Translations under genes and position numbers: made by a program
Notes under the pieces: model-generated
The model's input: the letters and a program-made list of their open reading frames with translations, nothing else
What the model was told of the DNA's origin: nothing
The model's database searches: none
Source of the DNA: Candidatus Enterousia intestinigallinarum
GTDB lineage: Bacteria; Pseudomonadota; Alphaproteobacteria; Rs-D84
Assembly (NCBI GenBank): GCA_944407095.1
Contig: OX097180.1
Span: 930,001 to 994,000 of the forward strand
DNA: 64,000 nt
Direction: 5' to 3'
Shown: positions 30,560 through 44,345 of the stretch, in pieces
How the letters are laid out: each line of letters opens with the position of its first letter
How positions within the stretch are numbered: position 1 is the stretch's first letter

Positions 30560-30588
30560 TTGCATTATTTAGTGGGGCGCGATAACAT
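30560..30588 (+). promoter_or_regulatory. Promoter of structured leader RNA copy 1
   Basis: TTGCAT (30560-30565), a 17-nt spacer and TAACAT (30583-30588) lie exactly 12 nt before the conserved GGGTGTTCC block. In copy 2 the gap from TATAAT to its GGGG run is also 12 nt. Confidence 0.65.
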
Positions 30589-30600
30589 AGTTTTGTCGGC

Positions 30601-30798
30601 GGGTGTTCCGTCGATGGGGTGTGAGAACCCGTACATACGCGTCGGAATATACGGGCGGCGCAAATGCGCCGGTTTTAATATTACGACGAAAAACAAACTC
30701 CTGATTTTTGGGTCAGGAGGGTCGCGAATATCAAATAAGCGACACAATTCGTATGATTGTTCTCAACCTCCTGACCACCAAATAATTGGTGGTTTTTC
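30601..30798 (+). ncRNA. Structured leader RNA copy 1 (attenuator-like), upstream of a secreted Cys-rich protein
   Basis: It opens with GGGTGTTCC-N5-TGGGGTGT-N3-AACC, spaced exactly as in copy 2. A variable hairpin follows (GGCGC/GCGCC near 30660). Stem A is CTCCTGA/TCAGGAG (30698-30704 with 30713-30719). Stem B is GGTCAGGAGG/CCTCCTGACC (30711-30720 with 30767-30776). B shares its 5' strand with A, so A and B exclude each other. Inside B are hairpin D, GTCGC/GCGAC, and hairpin E, ACAAT/ATTGT. Stem C is ACCACCAA/TTGGTGGT (30774-30793) followed by TTTT, a terminator whose 5' side overlaps B. The layout is that of a switchable attenuator. No known riboswitch class was recognised. Confidence 0.75.
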
Positions 30799-30824
30799 AT
30801 TTCGAAAAAAACAGGAGTTTGAAA

Positions 30825-31403
30825 ATGAAAAAAGCATTATATGTTGCGCCGATAGTCGCGGTGGTGTGCAATGGTGCCATTGCTTGGACGCCGGGTCAAC
30901 AGTGCAGCGCCGATTACGATATGTCCACATATTATCAGTGTGATTGCCCAATAGAAGACAGAATGGACACTGGCTGGATTGTTGGCCCCTGTGATTCTTA
31001 CGAACAAATATGGTGTTATGATGCAGACGGAGTTTGTGCCGGCGACGGTGGCGAAGGTGCGTGTGGTGTCTGTGGTTGCACGGATTCTGTTGGTGATTGG
31101 GAAAAAGTAGATGATCCATTTGTTGGTGAATTTATGCAACGCGTTATCACGACATACAGTCACTCGGATAACTATTACATATGCCGGGCGTCAACCGAAC
31201 GCCAAACCGCCTGTTTGCCAGGATATTATAATAACAGCACTTCCAGACTAGATTGCCGTTTGTGCCCGTCGTTTAATGGCACCGCGGGCGCGTCCGATAT
31301 TGGCGCCACCAGTATTACAGATTGTTATATTGCGGCCGGCACAACATTTTCAGACAGTACCGGTACATACACATATACCCGCGATTGTTATTATAGTAAT
31401 TAG
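30825..31403 (+). CDS. Secreted Cys-rich protein with C-terminal CxxCP/ITDC module
   Basis: This 192-residue protein has a signal peptide (MKKALYVAPIVAVVCNGAIA). The mature part is rich in cysteine, glycine and aspartate. A central CGVCGC cluster lies near residues 80-86. The C-terminal module, with CRLCPSFNGT, ITDCYIAAGTTFSD and DCYYSN, is also found in the small protein at 59742 and weakly in that at 54560. No catalytic motif was seen; it is probably a disulfide-stabilised surface or secreted protein. AACAGGAG precedes the ATG, as in the HTH gene behind leader copy 2. Expression is probably governed by the structured leader. Confidence 0.8.
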   Translation: MKKALYVAPIVAVVCNGAIAWTPGQQCSADYDMSTYYQCDCPIEDRMDTGWIVGPCDSYEQIWCYDADGVCAGDGGEGACGVCGCTDSVGDWEKVDDPFVGEFMQRVITTYSHSDNYYICRASTERQTACLPGYYNNSTSRLDCRLCPSFNGTAGASDIGATSITDCYIAAGTTFSDSTGTYTYTRDCYYSN

Positions 31404-43876: not shown

Positions 43877-44060
43877 TATAATACCCATTGCATTGGGGTG
43901 TTCCCGGTGTGGGGTGTTACAACCTGTCAGCAAGTGCCAGCGATGGCATTAAATATCTCCAACCAGTGGTTGGAGGGTTGTGAATATATTGAATAAGCAA
44001 CACAATACTTGCTGATTGTTGTAAACCTCCAACCACCTGAAATCTTTCCGGTGGTATTTT
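43877..44060 (+). ncRNA. Structured leader RNA copy 2 with its promoter, upstream of an HTH gene
   Basis: TATAAT (43877-43882) ends 12 nt before GGGGTG. GGGTGTTCC-N5-TGGGGTGT-N3-AACC follows (43896-43924), as in copy 1. The variable hairpin is TGCCA/TGGCA. Stem A is CTCCAACC/GGTTGGAG (43957-43964 with 43968-43975). Stem B is GGTTGGAGG/CCTCCAACC (43968-43976 with 44026-44034). Hairpin D is GTTGT/GCAAC, and hairpin E is ACAAT/ATTGT. Stem C is ACCACC/GGTGGT (44032-44055), then ATTTTTATTT. Compared with copy 1, A and B changed TGA to AACC on both strands and D changed C-G to T-A, so pairing is kept while sequence differs. Confidence 0.78.
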
Positions 44061-44087
44061 TATTTAATAAAAAAACAGGAGAGAGCA

Positions 44088-44345
44088 ATGTCCAATCACG
44101 ACATAATAGACGTGTATGATATTCTGACGGTTGGTACCGAAACAATTCCGCCAAAGGAAATATATTACGCAAAACTGGGCAAACTGATATGCGCTATGCA
44201 TAATGAAGCGAACGTAACCCTGCAACAGATACAACGTGCCACGGGCATAACCCCCGATGTATTACAGGATTACGAACTGGGGCGTCGTGAAATCCCAGTT
44301 TATGATTTGTTGGTATTGATGAGTTATCTGGAAAACCGGGGATAG
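44088..44345 (+). CDS. Small XRE-type HTH protein
   Basis: The protein has 85 residues. After an acidic N-terminus (about 1-20), a Cro/XRE-type helix-turn-helix is visible: KLGKLICAMHNEANVTLQQIQRATGITPDVLQDYELGRREIPVYDL, with the DYELGRREIP motif that follows the recognition helix in XRE proteins. It is probably a DNA-binding regulator, target unknown. AACAGGAG precedes the ATG, shared with the gene behind leader copy 1. Its expression is probably set by the attenuator-like leader. It is followed by a terminator shared with groL. Confidence 0.85.
   Translation: MSNHDIIDVYDILTVGTETIPPKEIYYAKLGKLICAMHNEANVTLQQIQRATGITPDVLQDYELGRREIPVYDLLVLMSYLENRG

Follow-up and report, generated by a model that had tools for sequence, protein, structure and literature searches.

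We propose, at a probability of roughly 0.6, that the structured RNA leaders found twice in the window (the whole stretch of 64,000 nucleotides analysed here) are self-contained, copy-specific attenuators, each derived from, or sharing ancestry with, the C4 and sRNA-Xcc1 RNAs. Judged from their sequences, the two leaders are an amplified variant of the sRNA-Xcc1/C4 kind, previously unmodelled and with known relatives. The helices, the mutually exclusive stems, the weakening of the terminator, the promoter and terminator layout, the kinship with RF02221 and the separate pairing code of each copy are all computed results and are set out below.

Both leaders carry the pattern GGGTGTTCC-N5-TGGGGTGT-N3-AACC, read directly at the coordinates given by an earlier, sequence-only reading of this DNA, and those coordinates stand, except that the element itself begins ∼7 nt further 5' than that reading had placed it. 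GTCGGC-GG/CC-GTCGAT folds into an 8-bp hairpin with a 5-nt loop (P0), the apex of which, the loop and its closing pairs, is the shared GGGTGTTCC. P1, a long closing stem, takes its 5' side from the strand running from GGGGTGT to AACC and its 3' side from the AACCTCC that lies directly before the terminator. The parts of both leaders are collected in Table 1, together with copies of a second sub-type; the HTH-like protein downstream of copy 2 has an HTH_3 match that falls under the Pfam cut-off.

Table 1. Parts of the two leaders (window positions) and copies of the RF02221-like sub-type (positions on G000:C1)
Feature	Position	Strand	Detail or basis
Copy 1 promoter	30560..30588	+	TTGCAT 30560-30565, 17 nt, TAACAT 30583-30588; read from sequence, profile of 51 copies
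Copy 1 P0 hairpin, 8 bp, loop GTGTT	30595..30615	+	At predicted transcript start; covariation, helices 1 and 2
Copy 1 P1 5' strand, variable part = decoy segment a1	30616..30627	+	Partner 30760-30771; helix 3
Copy 1 decoy segment b1 (CATACG)	30634..30639	+	Pseudoknot partner of P5 loop; helix 4
Copy 1 P2 hairpin, long type	30640..30688	+	Alignment and covariation
Copy 1 P3 (stem A)	30698..30719	+	30698-30704 with 30713-30719; helix 6
Copy 1 stem B, encloses P4 and P5	30711..30776	+	GGTCAGGAGG 30711-30720 with CCTCCTGACC 30767-30776, then ACCA
Copy 1 P4 (stem D), conserved GAAUA/AAUA loop	30721..30743	+	Helix 7
Copy 1 P5 hairpin (stem E)	30745..30759	+	Loop 30750-30755 = antisense segment b'; helix 8
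Copy 1 P1 3' strand	30760..30771	+	Antisense segment a' and switch strand AACCTCC; helix 3
Copy 1 intrinsic terminator (predicted)	30774..30797	+	Folding energy; U-run in genus copies
Copy 1 SD and gene	30813..31403	+	AGGAG 30813-30817; ATG 30825; 192-aa secreted protein, 16 Cys
Copy 2 promoter -10, TATAAT	43877..43882	+	Sequence and promoter profile
Copy 2 P0 hairpin	43890..43910	+	Folding and covariation
Copy 2 P1 5' strand with a1	43911..43922	+	Partner 44019-44030 (covariation)
Copy 2 b1 (AGCAAG)	43929..43934	+	Pseudoknot partner of 44008-44013 (covariation)
Copy 2 P3 (stem A)	43957..43975	+	Covariation
Copy 2 stem B	43968..44034	+	GGTTGGAGG 43968-43976 with CCTCCAACC 44026-44034; encloses P4 43977-44001, P5 44003-44018
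Copy 2 intrinsic terminator (predicted)	44031..44061	+	Folding energy
Copy 2 SD and gene	44077..44345	+	AGGAG 44077-44081; ATG 44088; 85-aa HTH-like protein
RF02221-like copy, L186	G000:C1 111251-111341	-	
RF02221-like copy, L166/L197	G000:C1 448390-448481	-	
RF02221-like copy, L167/L205	G000:C1 6061-6153	+	
RF02221-like copy, L168/L212	G000:C1 343001-343092	+	

Compared with shuffled sequence, the folds give z scores of -4.75 (copy 1) and -5.13 (copy 2). Eight helices, namely P0 (as two runs), P1, P2, P3, P4, P5 and a pseudoknot, are supported, first by the 11 copies of the own genome and then by a set of 51 from the whole genus. Over the 51 copies 97.1% of the cells are paired, both sides change in 35 of 44 pairs, there are 530 double-change cells against 149 after shuffling, and the covariation score is 0.64, where slid controls do not exceed 0.10 and are less than 49% paired; these values come from an alignment fitted to a model that holds most of the tested pairs, those of P5 and inner P0 being absent from it. 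P0 is paired in 99% of cells, with 3-6 pair types at most positions, P4 in 99.6%, with double changes in 5/5 pairs, and P5 in 100%. P5 crosses the pseudoknot b1:b', in which all 6 pairs change on both sides and which joins the P5 loop to the strand behind P1. The sequence-only reading had missed this pseudoknot: its stem E is indeed a hairpin, identical with P5, but was incomplete as described, the loop pairing back behind P1. Its stems A, B and D and its terminator C are all present and covarying. Another motif (AUGUCCA-GC...GCUAAAAGCC/GCCAAAAGCC) takes the place of the P4 loop in a few relatives belonging to different orders (L109, L115 and L183).

In stem B, the nucleotides that follow a' pair with what is otherwise the 3' strand of P3, so that stems A and B are mutually exclusive, and both covary. 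For stem B, 95.7% of the cells are paired, with 81 double-change cells and a score of 0.387 against at most 0.139 in the controls; it begins with GGU and is followed directly by ACCA or ACC.

A -35/-10 profile stands at a fixed spacing from the element in the 51 copies (TTGAA near -34, TATAAT near -11), which places the transcript start at P0. By these signatures both leaders start at a sigma-70-type promoter of their own and end in a predicted intrinsic terminator. All 43 genus copies for which a start codon was assigned have a U-run between the element and the SD, an arrangement that speaks for control of transcription in cis. When stem B forms it takes the base of the terminator, the predicted energy of which falls from -12.1 to -3.4 kcal/mol in copy 1 and from -11.3 to -3.4 kcal/mol in copy 2, and because the terminator is weakened in this way the attenuator layout that had been proposed, with stems A and B sharing a strand, is structurally upheld: of two exclusive stems, one removes, by computation, an intrinsic terminator that precedes a gene. 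The fold with P1 and P3 is favoured over that with stem B (-87.1 versus -77.7 kcal/mol in copy 1, -71.3 versus -52.9 kcal/mol in copy 2), a preference of 9.4 and 18.4 kcal/mol in an energy model that ignores the pseudoknot. With a1 and b1 blocked in silico, the pseudoknot again being ignored, copy 1 refolds to stem B and copy 2 keeps P3 and the terminator, so that antitermination by an RNA in trans is not general in this energy model. Attenuation through a leader peptide was rejected, since there is no conserved start codon and the ATG before GGGTGT is missing in several copies.

The switch strand after a', CCUCC or CUUCC, tends to match the SD: GGAAG SDs accompany 9 of 20 CUUCC elements versus 1 of 48 CCUCC elements (Fisher 2.8e-5, uncorrected for relatedness). 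Five relatives (L108, L114, L119, L120 and L134) have no clear terminator and a switch strand complementary to the SD (e.g. CCTCCAA with TTGGAGG), a combination that suggests a switch acting on translation.

On the window copies, and on the first 11 copies collected from the own genome, every Rfam family stays below its cut-off (RF02221 gives nothing at E ≤ 5). Covariance models nevertheless link the element to RF02221 (sRNA-Xcc1) in both directions and its parts are arranged as in the C4 antisense leaders of phages, so that the claim of a family outside any described class is not upheld. With a gathering cut-off of 53 bits, RF02221 gives sub-threshold matches of 35-39 bits in divergent members, where they coincide with the 3' half, and its core (outer stem, P4 with the AAUA/GAAUA loop, P5 and 3' ACC) is found in co-linear alignments on L112, L115 and L122. 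Searched genome by genome, it also matches main-type copies (G000 247387 at 31.3 bits, others in G010, G049 and G307), and its best score in the own genome, 50.4 bits at 111251, belongs to a different sub-type. In the other direction R1, a covariance model built only from the 11 window-genome copies, finds 5 RF02221 loci at full length (E 1.3e-5 to 0.025). Run without filters, it also picks up the leader before ant in Escherichia phage Rac-SA53 at 5.5e-7 and two RF02221-type own-genome copies at 5e-6 and 1e-5. Given these matches in both directions, the 87-nt RF02221 model seems to describe just the 3' half of an element that is longer and has two parts. Since the RF02221 cut-off is not reached, kinship and likeness are claimed here, not membership. 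Among 398 sampled Pseudomonadota genomes, RF02221 scores above its cut-off in 39.

sRNA-Xcc1 was described as an 88-nt RNA of Xanthomonas, present as a separate transcript of ∼88 nt (PMC2996969), and lies upstream of symE in integron cassettes (PMC12444791). An explanation of it as a two-part leader was not found in the openly licensed literature, and priority is not certain. The window copies resemble it in the outer stem (= stem B) followed by ACC, in the AAUA/GAAUA internal loop of P4, in the b' segment of the P5 loop and in a'; RF02221 loci in turn share with the window copies a 5' half (a1, b1, a hairpin and often P3) that is absent from the 87-nt model. The window copies differ in scoring under the cut-off, in their extra P0 hairpin and the terminator between element and gene, in having mostly lost complementarity to the ribosome site, and in the genes that follow, which encode secreted or HTH proteins where RF02221 loci have antirepressor genes or symE. 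A second, RF02221-like sub-type (39-50 bits, below cut-off) shares the genome with main-type copies (G000:C1, Table 1); its copies at 448390 and 6061 stand before secreted Cys-rich proteins, and their a' matches, by eye, the ribosome site of the next gene.

At RF02221 loci, a' is the segment before the outer stem, and b' is the P5-loop segment. Across 30 such loci the complementarity to the 75 nt behind the element is 6.50 nt in own pairing versus 4.63 nt when swapped for b', and 5.90 versus 4.74 nt for a', values of own pairing that 0 of 5000 permutations reached in either case. The two matches flank the SD, by eye, in many loci (e.g. L165, GTCTTGTTGC with ggagGCAACAAGAC), and the target sequences recur in the 5' half. 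Proteins encoded downstream include Bro-N, SymE, P22_AR_N, KilA-N and Rha domains, and the annotated gene after the element is ant in both Haemophilus phage Aaphi23 and Escherichia phage Rac-SA53. Many of these loci (L136-L165; L216 in Aaphi23, L217 in Rac-SA53) have an extra terminator between the decoy and antisense halves.

In C4 of P1/P7, a' and b' act on the target and RNase P cuts at GGW before the outer stem (PMC5320573); c4-a1b1 is listed as a separate motif by Weinberg et al. 2010 (PMC2864571). The likeness to the C4 antisense RNA of P1/P7 (RF01695; c4-2 RF02944) is one of layout, with an upstream decoy a1b1, an antisense a'/b' and a regulated gene, and window-type copies have such an upstream decoy a1b1 complementary to a'b' (P1 and the pseudoknot, helices 3 and 4). 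The Rfam C4 models (RF01695/RF02944) gave no match on the window copies or the tested RF02221 elements, one unrelated c4-2 match lying elsewhere in L145, and the C4 targets a2/b2 are not conserved in the window subfamily. The C4-derived sRNAs of Acinetobacter baumannii (PMC5320573) are similar in that an antisense RNA of phage type, its a' loop varying, is present many times in the chromosome of one genome; those copies, however, are described as sRNAs processed from longer transcripts (PMC5320573), whereas the Enterousia copies are leaders with their own promoter, terminator and gene.

Within the window subfamily the self-pairings a1:a' and b1:b' are strictly kept, and the codes are distinct in all 24 own copies, with a full cross-match in 0 of 552 pairings. 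Copy 2 and its paralogue L021 (G000:C1, ∼902.5-902.8 kb) differ at 16 of 24 positions of the code, but in the promoter at 2 of 52 and in the coding sequence at 10 of 258. This pattern is what selection for copy-specific recognition would give; the rapid divergence of the code concerns this one pair of paralogues, the leaders of other paralogues being as conserved as their genes or more so. The HTH-like genes (L018, window 44088-44345, and L021) and their promoters are near-identical, and the leaders differ almost only in code, P2 and P3.

Complementarity of main-type copies to their own downstream region is not significant for b' and weak for a'. This bears on the possibility that the element is a working C4-type antisense RNA, the 3' half of which is excised and represses mRNAs in trans at a2/b2 sites, its position as a leader being secondary. 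The GG at the start of stem B and the ACC(A) that follows it are as in an RNase P substrate, a' still matches the surroundings of the SD, by eye, in two RF02221-like copies (448390 and 6061), and a few main-type copies (L025, L027-L029) have a 6-nt a' match there. We nevertheless consider such a role unlikely, main-type copies having no significant complementarity to their own targets and the U-run preceding the SD in every one of the genus copies tested.

A 29-nt shared pattern occurs, with at most 3 mismatches, at 11 places in the genome of 1,001,484 bases, and the reversed pattern at none. R1 extends this to 24 own-genome copies at E ≤ 1e-14, at least 24 where the sequence-only reading had counted two. 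MAGs that carry the pattern are labelled either Candidatus Enterousia or uncultured Alphaproteobacteria, and many of them come from animal guts; Enterousia belongs to the GTDB order Rs-D84, whose genomes are of ∼1 Mb and whose members are predicted to live as symbionts or parasites (PMC12306168). R1 matches 55 of 59 Enterousia genomes (at least 30 matches in eight of these), 10 of 18 genomes from other Rs-D84 genera and, in the same sample, two elsewhere in the class; in a separate sample of the class the element is found in 17 of 289 genomes. Small secreted Cys-rich proteins follow 15 of the 24 own-genome copies, small HTH-like proteins 5, and other or unassigned frames 4. Read from the sequences, the element in other alphaproteobacterial orders precedes lipoprotein-like, porin-like and pilin-like genes, and the notion of a transferable control module set before unrelated genes is, on these counts, partly right. 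Window-type copies gave no exact match in viral contigs and no blastn match in phages. In relatives the element may be clustered, with two or three copies within 1-2 kb, some in tandem (L118, L122/L131, L123 and L053). The product of the gene at 30825-31403 of the window and those of other targets make up a family of small secreted proteins that is large for a genome of 1 Mb; each has 10-27 cysteines, and most have no match in Pfam.

Terminator-platform riboswitches (e.g. the SAM-I and c-di-GMP classes) have a closing stem that competes with an alternative stem controlling a terminator, and stand in several copies per genome upstream of envelope genes. The leaders might likewise sense a ligand, with P0, P1, P4 and the pseudoknot as the pocket and the ligand stabilising P1 and the terminator, or releasing it, across a secreted or envelope regulon. 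A multi-helix junction with a pseudoknot, the conserved P0 loop and the GAAUA/AAUA loop of P4 would suit this, as would an aptamer-like closing stem in competition with stem B and the relatives before envelope genes in other alphaproteobacterial orders. Unlike riboswitches of this type, however, the leaders have pairing segments that diversify between copies, a separate code in every own copy, relatives in RF02221 that behave as self-coded antisense RNAs, targets without a common biosynthetic theme (antirepressors, SymE, secreted proteins, HTH proteins) and no known ligand, and we regard a riboswitch as improbable. It is more improbable still that the leader is merely an RNA stabiliser, an insulator or a thermometer-like structure with no specific signal: the folds are very stable and stand before highly variable secreted proteins, but such a role needs neither two exclusive covarying stems, nor a pseudoknot, nor a terminator ahead of the coding sequence. 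Least likely is a repeat, perhaps of MITE type, that was scattered by transposition and is devoid of regulatory function; this would account for a copy number of two dozen or more in a 1-Mb genome, but hardly for copies that nearly all lie between promoter and ORF in the same orientation, or for compensatory changes, which show selection acting on the RNA.

Under the reading that we prefer, that of a self-recognising attenuator, the sigma-70-type promoter would produce an RNA in which the 3' half (b', a') meets its decoy in the 5' half (a1, b1) of the same molecule. With a1:a' (P1) and b1:b' (the pseudoknot) paired, stem A would stay intact and the terminator form, a presumed default OFF state. 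Where decoy pairing is prevented, the 3' half would refold compactly as an antisense RNA, with P4 and P5 inside stem B; the latter would take the foot of the terminator and transcription could enter the downstream gene (ON); in the read-through RNA the switch strand (CCUCC or CUUCC) could also pair with the SD. The window copies would on this account have lost most of their ribosome-site targets, and the self-pairing of decoy and antisense would have been turned into a leader switch. The switch presumably acts in vivo and in this ON/OFF direction, the RNA may be cleaved before stem B as in C4, and the self-pairing may be broken by an RNA of the same code in trans rather than by a ligand or protein, with processing of the RNA as a further candidate. 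More tentatively, a phage immunity-type RNA may have been domesticated and amplified into non-cross-reacting RNA switches, each with its own code and gating secreted Cys-rich proteins, two dozen or more per 1-Mb genome, in host-associated Alphaproteobacteria with reduced genomes.

For sRNA-Xcc1, so far annotated as a trans-acting sRNA, this gives a testable function, as the 3' half of a self-recognising leader before antirepressor or symE genes. The device appears to have spread through the Alphaproteobacteria before secreted and envelope genes, and to have been amplified to dozens of copies across one genus. If the codes work as keys, these leaders would be a natural example of orthogonal RNA switches working in multiplex, and would offer a rare way into the control of secreted proteins in uncultured, genome-reduced gut symbionts.
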